From positions 85,693,878 to 85,757,877 of the forward strand of contig CM055092.1 in assembly GCA_029204225.1 (NCBI GenBank): DNA of 64,000 nt, read 5' to 3'. The notes beneath the pieces are model-generated. The model made no database searches, had not been told where the DNA came from, and was given only the letters and a program-made list of their open reading frames with translations. Positions 17,694-60,943 of this stretch are shown piece after piece. The translations under genes were made by a program, and so were the position numbers. Each line of letters starts with the position of its first letter. Position 1 is the stretch's first letter. The stretch is from Diphasiastrum complanatum. Lineage: Eukaryota > Streptophyta > Lycopodiopsida > Lycopodiales > Lycopodiaceae.

Positions 17694-19570
17694 TGGGCAT
17701 CAGAGCAAGGCTTACACGAAGATTGGAGAACTTGGAAAAGTGCTTTTTTTTGTCGAAATTTTGGTGTGAATCAATTGGAATTTTCTTCTAGGAGGAGATC
17801 ATGATGGCAAGTGCGTGTAGTATCATGGTTTCCATTTGCATGTTGCTAAGATCCATTTCTCTCGAATTTTTTTTGGGTTTTATGGAAAATTGTCCTAGGA
17901 AGCCAATTTGTGATGCTTTTTTGAAGCTGTAGATCTGAATTTTCCAGAAAGTGTACTTATATTTTAGGGATCATTAATGATGAAATTAATGATGCATGCC
18001 GGTTATTTTAATGATTTACGGTTCTAGGCTATGTTTTGGTCAAAATTGCTTGTTTTTCATGCTTTTTGACTCAAAATTGATAGTAAGAACACAAATCCAA
18101 CAAAATCGGATCAATTAGGTGGCTATAATTCTGTAAATTGATTGGATGTGCTAGAGAAAGAGTTGCATGTCATAAAATTCCACTTTATAATAAAGAAAAA
18201 ATCAAAAAATATCTAAAAATCATCATTTTTGCTTGTTTTTTTTTTCTTTCATAAAGTTGGATAGTAGGTGGCATGTAGATCTTGTAAAGAGGTGAACCAA
18301 AGTCTTTTGAATCTTTACCTGAAGTTAGAGCCAAGAATTCCATGAATTGGACTTGTAGAAGGTCAAAAAAGACCAAAAACTAGCTTGTTTTTGCAGGTTT
18401 TGGGGGATGGATTGAGAGCAATCCATAAGGAGATCATGTTAAAAATGTATACAACATGATTAACATTCCTTTTGCCTTTGCCAGCAAGCTATCAACCCTG
18501 TAAATGGATGGCCGGTGGGTTATGCTTATTCTCCATCAATTTTGAAGCTATTTTGACTTCTACAAACCAAGAAATCTTCGTTCTCAGCCTATACTACTTC
18601 ATAGGATCTGTATGAATGCTTCACGGAATTCTTATAGACCATTTAAGACTGTTGGTAACATCACTTTTGAGCTTGGAGAGGTGTCTGACTGATTTTACAT
18701 CATATGCACTACTAGAAGTGTGACCAACTACAATTTTTCAGACGTTCTGTTCTCACACATGTAAAGCCTAGGTGTAATTTGGTGCATTGTAGCCCAAGTT
18801 ATAATCGTTTGAAATTTTGGCAGTTTTGTGAGTGAAATTGACAAAATCTGAAATTGTTCTTATTGCATGCCAATCTTTTTCCTAATTTGTGGTACTGTGC
18901 TTGCATGTTGATTTTAAGTGTGGTTCTGACATGCATGAAGGATTTACAGTCGATTTGAGTGGTTATACGCATGTGCTCGGATGTTTGGGTCACAAATCAA
19001 TGATATTGGCTGACAAATTCCGTAAAACTGGAGTTTACGTAAAAAATTCCATCCTGACGTTTTGTGTTGATGTAGTGTGCTTTGCATGCCAGTTAGACAT
19101 TGGTTCAGTAACATTATAAATCGAACAATACTTTGATTTTTTGATTTCGATTACCTATTGTACTAACAATATTTTCGTCAGAATTTTTTGAATTATGTAA
19201 ATTGTGCCAAAAATCGAGTTTTTTTTTGGAAAATCAAAATTTCGGTCATTTTTCGTTATCTATGGGATGAGTTTAGATTAGTGAATTGACTATACTGAGT
19301 TTTTCAGTCAGAGTTAGTCACACTGATTTCACTAAGGCTAAATTATTTCTCGGTAATAGATAGTCTAAAATTGAGAAAGAACCGCAATGAATTTGCTGAC
19401 AGTTTCTACTATATGATATTTTAACTTTTGGAGTATGGTACACCCAGGTTAAAAGTTCAAATTGTTTTTTTTTTTTGGTTGAATTTTAAAATTTGGTTAA
19501 AATTTAAAATCGTTTACTTATCAGATATATTTCTAATCGATACTGATTGTTAGAAATGGGTCAAGCATTA
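17694..19570. other. Non-coding repeat-like sequence
   Basis: Apart from the primer-binding site at its left end I recognise no gene. The stretch 18749-18847 repeats 1-106. The text is T-rich and free of long frames, as expected for a leader or other non-coding part of a retroelement. Confidence 0.45.
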
Positions 19571-19974
19571 GGGCCCTTTTTGAACTCAAAAAGGGCCTCT
19601 TCCTTGCCTAAACATGTTTGCTAATTAGGATTAATTAGTTCATTAATCGTCCTATGTGGCAGCTCACCCTGGGTTTATCATGGGTTAACTTCTATTTTAA
19701 TAGGCTTCACTTAGGCCTAGCATAATATAGCAAGGACACATCCCCACAATTATGCTATATAGTCTTGTCCTATTATCATTACTACGGGTTGAGGAAGTAG
19801 GGTTAGACGAGGGTTAATGGCTGGGTTAGAATTTGAGATCTATTTTACACCATTGGATGTGCCATGTCATATGGACCACTCCATCTCAATTGTCACTCTC
19901 TTATTGGTACACATGTCGTCATTAACACTAATTATAATTAGTGAAGAGGCCCTTTTTGAGTCCAAAAAGGGCCC
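19571..19974. mobile_element. 404-bp MITE with 32-bp terminal inverted repeats
   Basis: The ends are 19571-19602 and 19943-19974. They are inverted copies differing at 1 of 32 positions, starting GGGCCCTTTTTG. Each terminal repeat is itself nearly palindromic (gggccctttttg...caaaaagggcc). TA lies directly outside each end (19569-19570 and 19975-19976), so a TA target duplication of the Tc1/mariner (Stowaway) kind is possible. There is no coding capacity, so it would depend on a transposase elsewhere. The superfamily is uncertain because the terminal bases are not the usual Stowaway ones. Confidence 0.85.
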
Positions 19975-20942
19975 TAATGTAAACGTTTGTGCAAGATACT
20001 GTGAAAATTGAATTTTAAAATCCTCAAACAAGCCTGTAGACAGATAACCTAGCAGATCTGCGGTAAAAAATGAGAAAAGGCCACTTTTTCAAGTTGAGAA
20101 AAAATCACCATTTCTCCACGGAATTTCATGTTTGAACACTCTATAGACTTGGAATCAGTAGAGCAACTAGGCCTCAGATCGCACTCAAATAGATCAGAAA
20201 AGGAGTTTGATCAAGCTAGAAACAGGCTAGGAAGGCGCGGCCATGCAGAGAAGGTGGAGACAGATCGCGAGCCAGTTGCGCACCCTCACCCGAGTGGGTA
20301 TTTAGTGCACGAAGGTGCCTAGCGGCTGTGTGGAGGTCCATCAATGCCCAGAAGGATTAAGAGCCATATGATTGAGTTCCATCGCGATGGACAGTGCTGA
20401 TTAAGGGCCTCATGAGCATTGTGAATCGTTGGATCCAAGATAACCACTGGATTGCTTTGGAACCATTTTAAACTTCAAATAAAGGGGCTTGAAGGGCAAA
20501 GTGAACTTCAACTTCTTTAAAAATCCTCACTTTGAAATTGGAGTTGGGTCCCAATTTTCTTGAGGGTTAAAGTTTCTTCAAGCTGAAGAAATAGTTCAAA
20601 AACTAGAAAAGCCCTTATTTTCTAGTCCTTAAGCCTATTTGACTCAAACGAAAGGCTATAACCTCCAAACAAAGAGCACCCAGACTGTGCAAGTATGGTA
20701 CCGCAAAACAGAGTGATTGCAGCGGAGAAAGTGTTCGAAGCATGCCAAAAGCGATTTCACCATTCCATTGGGCACTTAGTTGGGAGTCGGCGACAAAGTG
20801 CATTTCGGAAGGCGTCGCCGATTTGGCTTCCAATATGGCAGAAAAGCAGTGGGTGGCCTGGTAAAGAAAAAATAGCAGGTCATTATTTTCAACTTCTAAT
20901 ATCGCAGTTGGCCTCGGCATACAACTTTTAGCCTACGGTTGA
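19975..20942. other. Unassigned sequence before copia-B gag
   Basis: A plus-strand frame at 20128-20322 and another at 20695-20931 are open but match no family I recognise. The stretch directly before gag (20880-20942) may be the element's leader but does not match the leaders at 29367-29690 and 32846-33207. Confidence 0.35.
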
Positions 20943-52058: not shown

Positions 52059-53034
52059 GTAGAAATTGATTCGTCTAGACTATCCTAGAACCCGAATGGA
52101 ATTCAATTATGTCTGCCGGCTACTGCCTGCTATGACAGAGCTACAATCCTCCAGAGTGTAGACAGACACTACTGACCTATGTTATAATACGTTTAAGCAT
52201 TCAACAAGATAATCTAGTGTGCGAAACTATGAATAAACGGCTGATTACAAACAATCAACAATCAGACATAAAAGTATTCGAGATCATTCAATAAGTCATT
52301 ATCAATGATCGTCTTTCTTGTAAGTGTTGTTGTGAAATCCACACAACACGTCGGCATGAGAGATACGATCTCTCTCACGAACTATATCAGATCGTCTCGC
52401 TTACTAGCGAACGTCCGAAACATAAGGTAGCAACATTGTGCTTAGCTCATATTGATGTTTTATCAATTTGATGTTCCAACCGATTCTCTCAATTTCAATT
52501 TGCTTATATGGATGGAGGGATATATGGTTTAAGTTAATTAGAAATTACAAGAACAGTTGATTAAGCACGTTCCAATGGTATCCAGATTGCCTCCAACATC
52601 ATCTATGCAGGAGCTTGTCCTTCTGGTTTTTTCTTGATTTCCTTTGTACTTGCAGCGTGAAGATTTGCCACCTTTCGGTCTTCGTGTCTTGTTCGCCTTC
52701 GTGTGTTCTTTGTCCTTCGGCTTCACCATTGAGCTTATTTTTGGTCCACGAACATTTTACCTTCGCGTTCATCTCGCATTCGGGTGTTCTTCAGTCCACA
52801 AACATATGACCTTTGTTTTTGGGTATTTTTCAGTCCTCGAAGCTTTGGTCTTCGCTTTCAAGCAGTTCCCTTGTGTTTGTGCGGACATGAGCTCAAAATC
52901 TAACAAAGCTTTGTGGCTGGAAACATTTTGTTTCTTCCGATAGCAACATTCTAGGTACTTTTCTATGACGTGTTTTCTATTAAAATTATATTTCTATTAC
53001 AATTATATTACTCATGTTACTTGCTCTATTATAG
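52059..53034. other. Intron-like or unassigned sequence
   Basis: No gene recognised. The stretch 52650-52870 is rich in the word cttcg and gives open frames on the plus strand that look artefactual. It ends at a good splice acceptor (ctctattatag) at 53034. Confidence 0.35.
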
Positions 53035-53461
53035 GTTTTGAAAGAAAAGCATGGAATTCTATCATGGATATTTTCACATACAGATTATGGAAAGATTATA
53101 AAAGAACATATGGAGGGTCAAAAACTTACAATGGAAAATCATGGCAGTTTTCAAATTCAATGGCACCTTGCAGGCGATTTGAAAAAGTTGAAATGCATAT
53201 ATAATGTTTCTCATGGGGCAACATCTAAGCATCCATGTATTTACTGCATGAAAGATTGCTATGATATAAATGTGGGATGAACAAACAATGGTCCACAAAC
53301 AAGGGAACTAGAAAATCCAAATCTGAAATGTGTTTTGCCAATACACTTAAAATATGTACACATATGCACATTGCATGCTGAGATAAATTTGCAGCACATC
53401 TTTCTACACCATGCCACATATTTTGCAAGAGAGTACGGGAGCTTAAGTACTTTAACAAGTA
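53035..53461 (+). pseudogene. Second transposon-associated exon (HPCIYC and VHICTLHA words)
   Basis: After the acceptor, a frame opens VLKEKHGILSWIF and continues WHLAGDLKKLKCIYNVSHG, ATSKHPCIYCMKDC, a TGA at 53278-53280, then in the same frame CVLPIHLKYVHICTLHAEIN. The sense of the text before and after the TGA looks continuous, so this is one coding segment with a nonsense mutation. A pattern of GDLK.L, HPC.YC and VH.CTLHA is familiar from uncharacterised transposon-like proteins, but I cannot name the family. It may belong to the same gene as 51862-52058. Confidence 0.45.
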
Positions 53462-57240: not shown

Positions 57241-57454
57241 TCTTAGTGATTAAGTTTTACAAGATAAAAGAACTTAAATAGTTTCTCATGTGTAGGTAAG
57301 AGCAAGGCAGGAAGAGCGTATAAAATGCAAAATACATAGGAACATCCATCAAAATTGAAGATCCTTAGAATTTGAACAGCGTGATTTTCTATTATGTCGT
57401 ATAATTTTTTGTATACATCATGTTTAAAAATATAGTAACCGCTCAAATTGAGTA

Positions 57455-58279
57455 TCATTGTTCAAGTTGAGGATCTTTCTTTTCTATGATCTCTATATCC
57501 ATTTCTCTATATGGAAGTAACTTTCTTGGAGAATGTGTAATTGAAACTGGAAATGAATTTTCAATAACAATTTTTATTGTCTCCTGCCAGAAATGCATTA
57601 TCTCTTCTGGGGAGACCTTCGAGCAAGAGAACTGCAAAAAAAAAAACACAAGCACATGTTATTAATGAAGAATAAGTGATTGAGAATTATGAATATGTGA
57701 TTCTGATTGTGATTGTGAATAAATAGATAACCTCAAGCAGATTTAGAAGCTTATCATGTAGTGCAAGCCAATTAAAAAAATGTTTGGCATTGTATATCGT
57801 ATACCAGCCACAACTAACACAGTCAGTCTGTTGGGAGGACTACAACGCGCATGTGATTAAATTGAAATCTACAAAAAAAAAAACTGTGTCAAATCGATAT
57901 CAGATAAAAATACCTTTGTATCAAACCTTTTAAGCTTTGTAAAGGTTGTTGCACTTGGCATTGGAAAGAGTTCCAATATCTTCTGAATAGAGCACTTCGG
58001 ATTACAAACACCCTCATCGTTGAGATACAAAGACAAAGCATCTAAACTCTAGTGGCCACTATAATCAGAAATCAATATGTTCTTTAGACTGCAAGTAAAA
58101 TCACAATTCATATGAAAAAATCAACTTATTAAAATGTGAAAAGCATACACATACTTGTGTATGCATGGGAGCACGAACAATGGAGTCCCCTCTCTGATGT
58201 TTTTTATCATCTCAGAGTGCATGTGGCAAAATCGAGAAAGTGGAAAGCACTCATGAATTTTATATGAAACATGAGACAT
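57455..58279 (-). pseudogene. Ulp1/C48-like cysteine protease relic, four exons
   Basis: Four minus-strand exons have proper gt-ag borders: 58279-58155 (MSHVSYKIHECFPLSRF...), 58088-57914 (LKNILISDYSGH, CNPKCSIQKILELFPMPS), 57868-57732 (RVVVLPTD, QTDCVSCGWYTIYNAKHF) and 57631-57455 (EEIMHFWQETIKIVIENSF, stop at 57457-57455). Phases fit between exons 1 and 2 and between 3 and 4. QTDCVSCGWY matches the Ulp1/SENP active site, with the oxyanion Gln six residues before the catalytic Cys and Cys-Gly following. Defects are a TAG in exon 2 (after SGH) and a frameshift in exon 3 just before the active site. The His/Asp part is not recognised. C48 domains occur in SUMO proteases and in plant transposons (some Mutator-like elements); the relic could be either. 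Confidence 0.65.
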
Positions 58280-58499
58280 CTAAAAAAATTGGAGTTTGAA
58301 AAAACTAAAGGCAAGAATATTGAATGCCCCCCCCTCCTACATTTTCTCCTAACATGCTACCCTTATTTTCTAATTCACCTGTATCTAATTTATTAATTTA
58401 TTTTGGAAAATTGTAAAGTAGACCTAGAGATTTAAGATGTGTAGATAGTAATTGGTCATATTGTACATATTTTGGAGACCCTACAAATGTAAGTCCAGG
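58280..58499. other. Possible intron upstream of the protease exons
   Basis: Non-coding, AT-rich, with a C-run at about 58327-58336. It ends, on the minus strand, at the acceptor tttttttag before 58279. Confidence 0.4.
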
Positions 58500-59180
58500 G
58501 AGTGCATGAAGTAGGGAGTGATACAGACAAACCCAAAATGAATTCTTTTCAAACAATGAGTCATTCTTTAACTTTACAGATTGGTCTAATTCTGTTGTTG
58601 ACAGTGAGGGGGGGGGACATAGGAGGTTTAGGAGGAGAAGAAGCTTTAGGAGGAGATGGAGCAGATTTAGGAGGAGAAGAAGATTAAGGAGGAGGAGACG
58701 GAGGAGATTTAGGAGAGCTAGGAGATTTAGGAGAAGAGGAGATTGCTCTCAAGATATCCTTGAGAGGAGACACATGTGAAAAATCTCTGGCTCTTTGAGG
58801 AATGCAGAAAGACGTCCTCCTCTTTGAGACGTCCCACTCTACACCCGAAATACGAGGCAATCAGTTGAGGTTCCTTCCAATTTTTTTTTTGACCATCGAT
58901 TTTGGAGGAGAGGACGAAGCTGGTCGGAAGCACTCATCAAATTTTTCATGTGCCCCGTAGCCTAACACAATCGTCAAATCCTTCGACGTGATAGTCACCC
59001 GCTTGGCATGAACAACTACAACAACACAATCTGAAAACAATTTCACTTTGAAATCCTCATAGGTTGTAGCAATTTCAGATGATGAGTCTGTTGAATCTTC
59101 TATTGTTCCCTTGATTGAAACATCTACATCTGTTCCAATCGAAGTAGATGAACAAAATACTAATATAGGGGTTGAAGCTT
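58500..59180 (-). pseudogene. Histone H3-fold segment with an SPK/Pro-rich tail
   Basis: On the minus strand, frame 59180-58861 reads an acidic/Ser stretch (IEDSTDSSSEIATTYEDF), then VKLFSDCVVVVVHAKRVTI followed by TSKDLTIVLGYG. This aligns with the end of helix 2, loop 2 and helix 3 of histone H3 (family pattern LFED..LCAIHAKRVTIM.KD). Helix 1 and the N-terminal tail are not found. After a frame change near 58880, a second frame reads VEWDVSKRRTSF, SHVSPLKDILRAISSSPKSP and SPPKS-type repeats to about 58600, with a stop in the repeat. It lies ~220 bp upstream of the protease exons on the same strand, so one gene is possible but unproven. Canonical plant H3 diverges from this text, so it is not an ordinary histone gene. 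Confidence 0.55.
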
Positions 59181-59519
59181 AAGCATCCATAACTTCATAT
59201 TATGAGAAAACCCTCTCGTTCTATAATCCTCTCTGACTCTCTCCCAACTGAAACTCCTATTAATATATCAACTCTACTCGATGTTCATGTATACTTTATA
59301 AATAAGGATAGTATATTTCTTTTAATGATATATAAAATGTTTTTGATATGAGAGAGGATGAAGTCTTCTCAATTTTTGCACAACAATTCTCAGAATTTTT
59401 TGACATAATTGATTATAGTTATAATGATCTTGAAAGTGAGATAGATTTTGATTAAGATGGTGATTGGAAATCTGGCAAGGGGGCATTGTAGGCCATAATT
59501 GAGAAATCGAAAGCCTATG

Positions 59520-60391
59520 GGCTAAAAGCATGGTTTGGTAGTACAACATGGAGTGTCAAGGACACTACCTTTTTGGGTAGAAATGTTCTTTTGTATTATT
59601 ATACACTATTTTTAAATAGAGGGTACCTTCAGATTCACCTGCATGGAAACACATCAACAAAGAGTATTCGAGCTTTACCAACGAGTCAAGAAATGTGAGA
59701 TTTGGTCTTGCAATAGATAGTTCAGTCTAGAACTTGTTACCTTTGCAATAAAGCATATTGTTTCCATGATCCATCGTGGATATCCAGCATCGCGCACGTG
59801 AGCTTCTTTTCCATTTACTCATCGAACAAAAAATCATTTATGTTTGGTCCAATATGTGTCATGTTGATATATGGATTAGAGCTAGAGAGCAATCAAATAC
59901 AAATTATTCGGGTTCATGATAAGGTATCATATGTCTCGTTGGATTTCATGTATTTTGATGGGAATGAATCATAGTTTGACTTGCCATAATGTTTTAACTG
60001 TGCCTTGAAAATTGGTCATCTAACATATCATTGGAAAGCACTTGTCAAGTGCTTTCTAACACACCAAACTCCATTGGAATTGGATTTACCACTAAAAAGA
60101 TATGTCATTTTTAATGTGGACTCAAAAAATTATGATTAATAAAGTCCCCATACCTTTGACTTGCCATAACTCTTTAACTGTGGCTCGAAAGTACGTTATG
60201 TAACATGTCAAAGCACTTTCTAACGCACCAAACTTCGCTGAAATTGGACTCACCTCTAAAAAGTTATGTCATTTCTAATGTGGACTCAAAACAATTATGA
60301 GTGATAAAATTCCCAAAAAGTGAAATGTACTACCAAAAGGTACAATGAAAAATGGGTTCTTTTTTTGTACCACCAAACCATGCTTTTAGCC
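59520..60391. mobile_element. 872-bp TIR element inserted in an exon
   Basis: The ends 59520-59546 and 60365-60391 are inverted copies differing at 1 of 27 positions (ggctaaaagcatggtttggt...). TATG flanks both sides (59516-59519 and 60392-60395); the match can be extended to AGCCTATG if the first four terminal bases are counted as target. Removing the element restores an open reading frame across the site. It has no transposase and is non-autonomous. With a 4-bp duplication the superfamily is unclear; with 8 bp it would fit hAT. Confidence 0.85.
59972..60318. repeat. Two tandem ~170-bp units inside the TIR element
   Basis: Units begin tttgacttgccataa at about 59974 and 60152 and share gaaagcac, tttctaac.caccaaact, aaattgga and atgtggactcaaaa words in order. 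They differ at many positions, so the duplication is older than the insertion or was copied from a satellite-like source. Confidence 0.85.
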
Positions 60392-60943
60392 TATGAAGAA
60401 ACTTTGCCGAATGAGGAGGAATTTTTGGAATTAAAAAAAAAACATCCTCCAAGGAATCATTATATCTCTTCGAGAATTGTAGAAGTCATTGGAGGACATG
60501 ACATTAGCAGAACAAACATCATTAAATTTGACGATCATGATATGGTAAGTAGATATTATATTGGTTTTGATATTGTGCAGTTTTCTTTCAATCAAAAGTT
60601 GAAGTTTGAAATTGTATTGTTATCTTTCATTCTAAATTTATTTGATTAACTCTTTTATAGGATTCTATTGAACTAGATTCTTTTGGTATGAGACATGGAG
60701 GCCTTTGACGTATATCACTTGGGAGAAAGAATGTATCTCTTTCTCATTATTTGAAAAACTTTGAAAATAATGAGATTTGTATATATCATGGATCTTTTAA
60801 TCCATATGCTGCCACTGTCATTATGGCCTTCAAGTCGTTATCTATTAGTTTAAGAGGCTCTATTTACTCTAGAGGAACGTATAAAATAGCTTTTTGTGAA
60901 AATGGATCTGGCCATTACAATATTGGGTTATACCCCCAATGAT

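Follow-up and report, generated by a model that had tools for sequence, protein, structure and literature searches.

Histones normally belong to the host. The closest described systems are summarized here. In Pseudocercospora fijiensis, 784 H3-like sequences were counted in 471 hAT elements (PMC6710886), and the likeness to the present locus lies in a core histone H3 amplified inside a DNA transposon with terminal inverted repeats (TIRs). The H3 transcripts captured by these Dothideomycete elements are mostly truncated and RIP-inactivated, and 23 of 26 in Pyrenophora are putatively functional (PMC6710886). The term 'Ulp1' has no occurrence in that paper, whereas in the element described here a divergent H3 appears to be joined to a C48 domain, dN/dS is low and no 8-bp target-site duplication was seen.

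In plants, the Vandal MULEs (Kaonashi/KIU, VANC) encode an accessory protein with a Ulp1/C48 domain, and this protein counters silencing (PMC13317346). The partner of Ulp1 there is VANC, not H3, and the Vandal elements are non-TIR MULEs, in contrast to the CATTAG-TIR element studied here; 'histone' has no occurrence in that review. Ginger1 transposases with a C-terminal Ulp1 or OTU domain also couple C48 to a transposon-encoded protein (PMC2836005). Their C48 domain is fused to an integrase-like transposase, whereas ours would have H3 as its partner, in a gene distinct from the transposase-like one, and the Ginger1 paper contains no occurrence of 'histone'. Viral histones and histone fusions show that selfish DNA can carry histones, some of them fused to other sequences (PMC9145170); these belong to NCLDV, nudiviruses and bracoviruses, and 'protease' is absent from that text. 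Among the open-licence papers listed, we found no report of an H3-C48 fusion and no transposon histone besides the fungal captures. Transposon-borne H3 (fungal hAT) and transposon-borne Ulp1 (MULE, Ginger1) are known separately, and their predicted fusion would be the new part.

The copy in the window

The window, a stretch of 64,000 nucleotides from Diphasiastrum complanatum, contains a truncated, decayed relic of the element (Table 1). The sequence-only reading had claimed an H3-like segment on the minus strand, and profile analysis of its translation agreed: the ORF at 58864-59178 matched Pfam Histone (PF00125) with 26.9 bits (cut-off 26.4, E 6.2e-6). The DNA search of the genome (1.745 Gb), in which the best 40 of 1,445 candidates were scored, gave matches all at E 5.8e-42 or better. 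A chance match to H3 was ruled out by these genome copies and by the profiles. The proposed extent of the segment, helix 2-loop 2-helix 3, is correct for the window, where tblastn confined H3 to residues 51-107 or so of an element H3 query 111 residues long, and not for the relatives, which have full-length H3. The N-terminal part of the ORF (59178-59068) is upstream element sequence that was brought onto the H3 remnant by deletion, because L016, L023 and L025 hold about 0.9-1.8 kb between the bases matching window 59066 and about 59061-59091 (blastn).

The Ser-Pro-Lys tail claimed beside the H3 segment shares its frame, and a single stop codon (58861-58863) divides the two. A protease with a Q-x5-C-G signature had also been read on this strand, and its pieces were recovered there in order from 58589 to 57458. 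Exon 2 of this copy has a stop codon at the Trp after the catalytic His as well as an internal deletion, and frameshifts are present in the protease region. Taken singly, the window's own protease pieces gave no Pfam match; it is through other copies that they are assigned to C48. Between the outermost upstream piece and the next one, about 870 bp (60387-59520) gave no blastn match to L016 or L025.

Table 1. Features of the element copy, and of a neighbouring fragment, by position in the window
Feature	Position	Strand	Evidence
H3 fold remnant: α2, loop 2 with HAKRVTI, α3; N-tail, αN and α1 deleted	58900..59067	-	tblastn, Pfam Histone
Upstream element sequence fused to H3 remnant; homologous to region 5' of H3 gene in L016/L023/L025	59065..59519	-	blastn
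Ser/Pro/Lys linker; H3-remnant frame past one stop, frame change later	58600..58863	-	ORF list; linker match 58797-58711
Putative protease lead-in, remainder of exon 1 (LGDNVG..AIQYW segment in relatives), frameshifted	58154..58589	-	tblastn, 58589-58317 and 58330-58154 in different frames
Predicted C48 exon 2, triad His	57911..58060	-	tblastn (58060-57911) and sequence
Predicted C48 exon 3, Q-x5-C-G with Gln and catalytic Cys	57687..57839	-	ORF; tblastn (57839-57729)
Predicted C48 exon 4, C-terminal part	57455..57658	-	ORF; tblastn (57631-57458)
3' flank of the gene within the element, homologous to L025/L026	56820..57462	-	blastn
Internal part of the element, upstream, with homology to L016 and L025	60388..61079	-	blastn
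Further element ORF on the opposite strand, pieces 59081-59203, 59381-59518, 60389-60589, 60724-60894	59081..60894	+	tblastn
Transposase-like gene fragment from another copy, CLYC and CTLHAE motifs	52939..53449	+	tblastn, blastn

Three more copies of window 57358-60680 (~3.3 kb) were observed on contig C1, at 99.5-99.9% identity as far as the fetched loci extend. These near-identical copies hint at a larger, recently duplicated unit around the window copy.

Gene structure in the fuller copies

The first 20 loci were taken from the DNA-ranked list. When the protein sequence of the L025 H3 fold was used as query, the best 150 of 6,426 candidates had E values of 2.6e-52 or lower, and 13 further family-A copies (L029-L031, L033-L042) were picked from this list, mostly for long frames and therefore non-randomly. 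Some of the counted copies are closely related (L016 and L021 share 98-99% identity), and L009 resembles L010 in having equal match lengths. Among the matches listed, copies are spread over many contigs, and most copies examined are damaged.

Less damaged copies were nevertheless found in the host genome. In these, a single long exon comes first and comprises the N-tail and the whole fold of H3, a Ser/Pro/Lys linker and the lead-in of a Ulp1/C48 domain. The order within it is a MARTKQTAR-like tail, a Pro-rich segment, the H3 fold (WLKDIRKLQKTNNLLI...HAKRVTIMPKDF), the Ser/Pro/Lys linker and the segment LGDNVG..AIQY, which we read as the C48 lead-in. The frame is open from the H3 fold into this segment in 5 of the 13 family-A copies picked mostly for long frames, namely L030 (417 aa), L031 (378 aa), L033 (335 aa), L034 (364 aa) and L036 (311 aa), and only L030 and L031 extend to the end of exon 1. 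L041, which carries an internal deletion, extends to the lead-in, and the linker of L029 is interrupted by a Copia insertion. In the other families, uninterrupted frames were present in three of the four places fetched at length (L050, 434 aa; L049, 402 aa; L052, 347 aa).

C48 pieces were detected by tblastn downstream of H3 on the same strand in 15 of the 20 loci of the first set. No protease piece was detected by tblastn in the other five (L009, L010, L016, L021, and L024), all of which keep H3 and four of which keep the linker. Phase-compatible exons had been proposed for the window, and L031 shows introns with GT/AG borders and compatible phases; in L050, too, the catalytic exons come next, with borders of the GT/AG type and phases that agree. 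The first acceptor of L030 no longer has its AG. Exon 2 carries HWSLY and KMNS and exon 3 carries SSQQVDSVSCGW, so that the catalytic His, Asn, Gln and Cys fall in exons 2 and 3, which splicing would join. The single gene, originally marked as an inference, thus gained support from uninterrupted frames running from the H3 fold through the linker to the protease lead-in in relatives. Two separate relics lying side by side are disfavoured by the same open frames and by the conserved order. We consider it very probable that this is one fused H3-C48 gene, in which exon 1 is joined to the catalytic exons by splicing inferred from the exon borders.

A second, diverged match to C48 exon 4 was observed about 0.6 kb downstream of the first in L030, L031, L041 and L043, and L035 and L037 have the second only. 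Exon 2 of L030, L036, L038 and L039 contains in-frame Thr-His runs of varying length just past KMNS, with CA microsatellite DNA in L030.

The histone and protease parts and their possible role

A profile of ten fuller copies aligned with solved H3 over positions 1-131 (E 1.2e-24). PF00125 matched 10 of 10 family-A copies (best 2.4e-20), and Pfam Histone matched all tested copies of families A-C. H4 in place of H3 was ruled out, as the alignment of the fuller copies with H3 begins at residue 1. In one PDB search a Cse4-Scm3-H4 chain came out best, the match extending over its Cse4 part as well as its H4 part. Members of the H3 alignment also gave below-cut-off Pfam matches to CENP-T_C (9/10) and DUF6819 (5/10), which we take to be histone-fold echoes.

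The start of the tail was readable in 27 of 34 H3-bearing loci; in L011, L012, L014, L015, L017, L024 and L025 no match reached it. The element H3 keeps an ARTKQTAR-like tail start, and family-A tails showed K4 in 27/27, Q5 and T3 each in 26/27, R2 in 21/27 and R8 in 19/27. Position 9 was Gly (11), Ile (8), Leu (6) or Val (2) and Lys in 0/27. Position 10 was His in 27/27, giving S10 in 0/27, and position 14 was Lys in 1/27. K4 was kept and K9 absent in the one family-B start (L050, MARTKQTARL) and in both family-C starts, MDRRKQTRRD of L049, which is out of frame with its own H3 fold, and MDRRK-stop-TRRG of L052. The loss of tail lysines could be drift or ancestry.

The protease part was compared with PF02902 at its curated cut-off of 20.7 bits. 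Three copies from three families exceeded it (L019, 21.7 bits; L050, 24.7 bits; L049, 23.7 bits), so the predicted C48 match holds for these relatives and fails for the window pieces taken singly. Within family A, 1 of 14 scanned copies was above the cut-off (L019), L013 gave E 0.25, and the others gave nothing. One scan of seven copies had one match (best E 2.9e-4; the trimmed L019 reading alone, 2.0e-4), and a second scan had 0 of 9 above the PF02902 cut-off, with L013 and L031 included in both scans. Both tested copies of families B and C passed. The exon-1 proteins of L050 and L052 alone showed no C48 match in Pfam, and the Pfam call therefore rests mostly on exons 2-3. The C48 profile had no match among solved structures up to E 10. 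In hhalign against Ulp1/SENP1 it aligned at the Q/C box only, with a probability of 0.5%, and a control with the H3 alignment was lower still.

Catalytic columns were counted over the family-A copies whose match covers the column. His was found in 19/19, Cys in 15/15 and Gly in 15/15. The oxyanion Gln of Q-x5-C was present in 11/13, with His in 2/13, and the Gln preceding it in 13/13. The position of the usual triad Asp was Asn in 17/19, Asp in one and a stop in one, and Asn also occupies this position in L049, L050 and L052. We assign the protease part as a divergent C48 (Ulp1-type) cysteine protease domain. The changes from Asp to Asn (17/19) and from the oxyanion Gln to His (2/13) mean that protease activity is not assured. 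Papain uses Asn at the corresponding triad position, and activity is therefore possible.

The explanation that we consider best, and hold at slightly better than an even chance, is that the TIR family encodes a spliced H3-C48 protein acting as a chromatin-entering, anti-silencing accessory factor. Splicing of the exons would yield one H3-C48 protein, the element's own accessory factor. Its H3 part would pair with H4 and enter or dock on nucleosomes at element DNA, and the linker would carry the C48 domain, tethered to chromatin via H3/H4. The loop-2/α3 stretch HAKRVTIMPKD, which we take to be the H3-H3' contact in nucleosomes, is kept, and pairing is therefore plausible. Plants silence transposons by H3K9 methylation. 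A tail without K9 could therefore not receive the H3K9 silencing mark, and the kept K4 would leave the element tail able to carry an active mark. The tethered C48 domain would free silencing proteins in its vicinity of SUMO or of a modifier related to it. Silencing would then be countered, and element copies would stay expressed and mobile.

The anti-silencing role itself is proposed tentatively, at somewhat less than an even chance, by analogy with VANC genes with a Ulp1 domain, which hypomethylate related Vandal elements according to the review; VANC-KIU is the nearest precedent (PMC13317346). It is more doubtful that the protein works as a selfish histone, that is, a K9-unmethylatable H3 variant that would replace or join H3 over element DNA and make a mark-proof, locally deSUMOylated, unsilenceable chromatin. 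If true, a transposon histone kept by selection, joined to a protease and lacking K9 would add a new weapon to those used between genomes and mobile DNA in their conflict, and would also serve as a natural test of the roles of the H3K4 and H3K9 positions. With its high copy number, the H3-C48 family could have shaped this genome.

The transposon, its families and competing readings

The transposon setting suggested for the window was borne out. The element is a TIR DNA transposon family. Its TIRs are imperfect, about 35 bp long and start with CATTAGGGG, the two being CATTAGGGGAAATATGGGCTCAAAATGGGCCCTTT and CATTAGGGGATATTAGAACTCAAAATGGGCCCTTT. With up to 3 mismatches, 1,230 matches to the 5' and 1,039 to the 3' TIR were counted, against 0 for the reversed-pattern controls; a few sites may count in both totals, because the patterns differ at only five positions. 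Both TIR ends were found in L043 and L044. L043 is a 9,031-bp copy with both TIRs, parts T1 and T2 of the transposase-like gene, the opposite-strand ORF set and a frameshifted H3-C48 gene; T3 of the transposase-like gene was not found in it. Four TIR pairs showed no target-site duplication (for the two on C2 and C3, the ends alone were read), and neither did the L029/L032 pair. The MULE target-site duplication is 9 bp. Membership in MULE or hAT was rejected, since neither a 9-bp nor an 8-bp target duplication at these TIR pairs nor a Pfam transposase match was obtained.

In the first set, 7 of the 20 loci have the transposase-like gene upstream. Its protein contains the motifs KLDES, GDLK...CLYC, CTLHAE and WSSQGMEKSHW, which we read as a putative DDE-type RNase-H fold with a zinc-binding insert. 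None of the pieces T1, T2, T3, the E motif and the N-terminal piece was above a curated Pfam cut-off, and T2 had no match among solved structures. The position of these pieces, upstream on the same strand in the 7/20 loci and also in L029, L043 and the family-C copy L049, speaks for another role, in which H3 (with H4) would dock the transposition complex on nucleosomes or handle the element ends, and C48 would deSUMOylate repair or transposition factors. The Ulp1/OTU domains of Ginger1 have been proposed to act in transposition or repair (PMC2836005). However, this role leaves the conserved tail start with its loss of K9, S10 and K14 unexplained, and we regard it as unlikely.

Selection was estimated by median pairwise dN/dS, leaving out L009 (likely a near-duplicate of L010), rows that covered less than 70% of a query, and pairs whose dS was saturated or very low. 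H3 had a median of 0.24, from 430 pairs among 30 copies; the two protease segments of exon 1 had 0.32 and 0.24, exon 2 had 0.33 and exon 3 had 0.24. These pairs are non-independent, with the many dead copies pushing the values up and the 13 protein-ranked copies pushing them down. Constraint was weaker in C48 exon 4 (0.53). The three transposase pieces gave 0.61, 0.23 and 0.34 (5 copies each), and the opposite-strand ORF set 0.47-0.67. The low values for H3 and protease exons 1-3 (0.24-0.33) argue against a passenger, in which H3 and C48 fragments were transduplicated by chance and remained functionless as in the fungal hAT elements, and so do K4 in 27/27 and the conservation, from one divergent family to another, of the order, the exon borders and His/Asn/Cys. 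We judge such a passenger highly improbable, even though hAT capture of H3 with decayed copies is documented (PMC6710886) and most copies examined here are damaged.

An Arabidopsis CENH3 query gave 5,531 candidates, the best 150 of which comprised 13 canonical-H3-like places (59% identity), including L054, a canonical H3, and 137 others at 47-56%, many of which have long frames free of stop codons. Among these best 150 of 5,531, few of them read, no clearly separate host CENH3 was found. The H3 folds of families B and C were 59% and 43% identical to the family-A queries, respectively, and the His and Cys exon pieces 32-67%. The H3 of L050 (family B) scored 87.8 bits (8.5e-25), and its C48 score given above refers to a spliced reading that breaks off at an in-frame stop within exon 2 and is taken up again with exon 3. 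L052 (family C) scored 98.7 bits for H3 (3.5e-28), and the C48 score of L049 (family C) comes from exons 2 and 3. L049 also contains a T1 match of the transposase-like gene (39%), just upstream and within the same open frame. L053, a short stretch, has a family-C H3 fold with a stop.

These families also bear on a possible centromere-directed element, in which a CENH3-derived H3 would guide the element, or the complex that transposes it, to chromatin of the centromere and C48 would act on SUMO-regulated kinetochore or CENH3-loading factors. The folds of families B and C have LIPRAPF/LIPRASF and EDF/EDY stretches, which resemble the signature of plant CENH3, and the 137 of the best 150 places, few of them read, are 47-56% identical to Arabidopsis CENH3. 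Integration of retrotransposons directed by CENH3 chromatin has reportedly been published. However, the 13 canonical-H3-like places scored higher in the CENH3 search (59%, among the matches listed), and L035 of family A is about equally identical to canonical H3 (35/84) and CENH3 (38/83). The tree, built on a short alignment of 11 rows, sets A+B+C apart from AtCENH3 and canonical H3 with support 84/84, and the copies lie on many contigs. A centromeric role is improbable in our view, and the anti-silencing accessory factor remains the explanation that we prefer.

Elsewhere in the window, positions 19566-19980 hold a non-autonomous element of about 415 bp with near-perfect TIRs (CATTAGGGCCCTTTTTGRACTCAAAAAGGGCC), the start of which is similar to the TIR of the H3-C48 element; no target duplication is visible at this element. 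L051 (C17:8894700-8897900, minus; reverse-strand ORF 2-688), one of the four places fetched at length from the CENH3-query list, encodes an H3-like protein without C48. It has an N-terminal extension of about 100 aa and matched Pfam Histone with 95.9 bits, and its CENP-T_C match (28.3) was just above the cut-off of 28.1.
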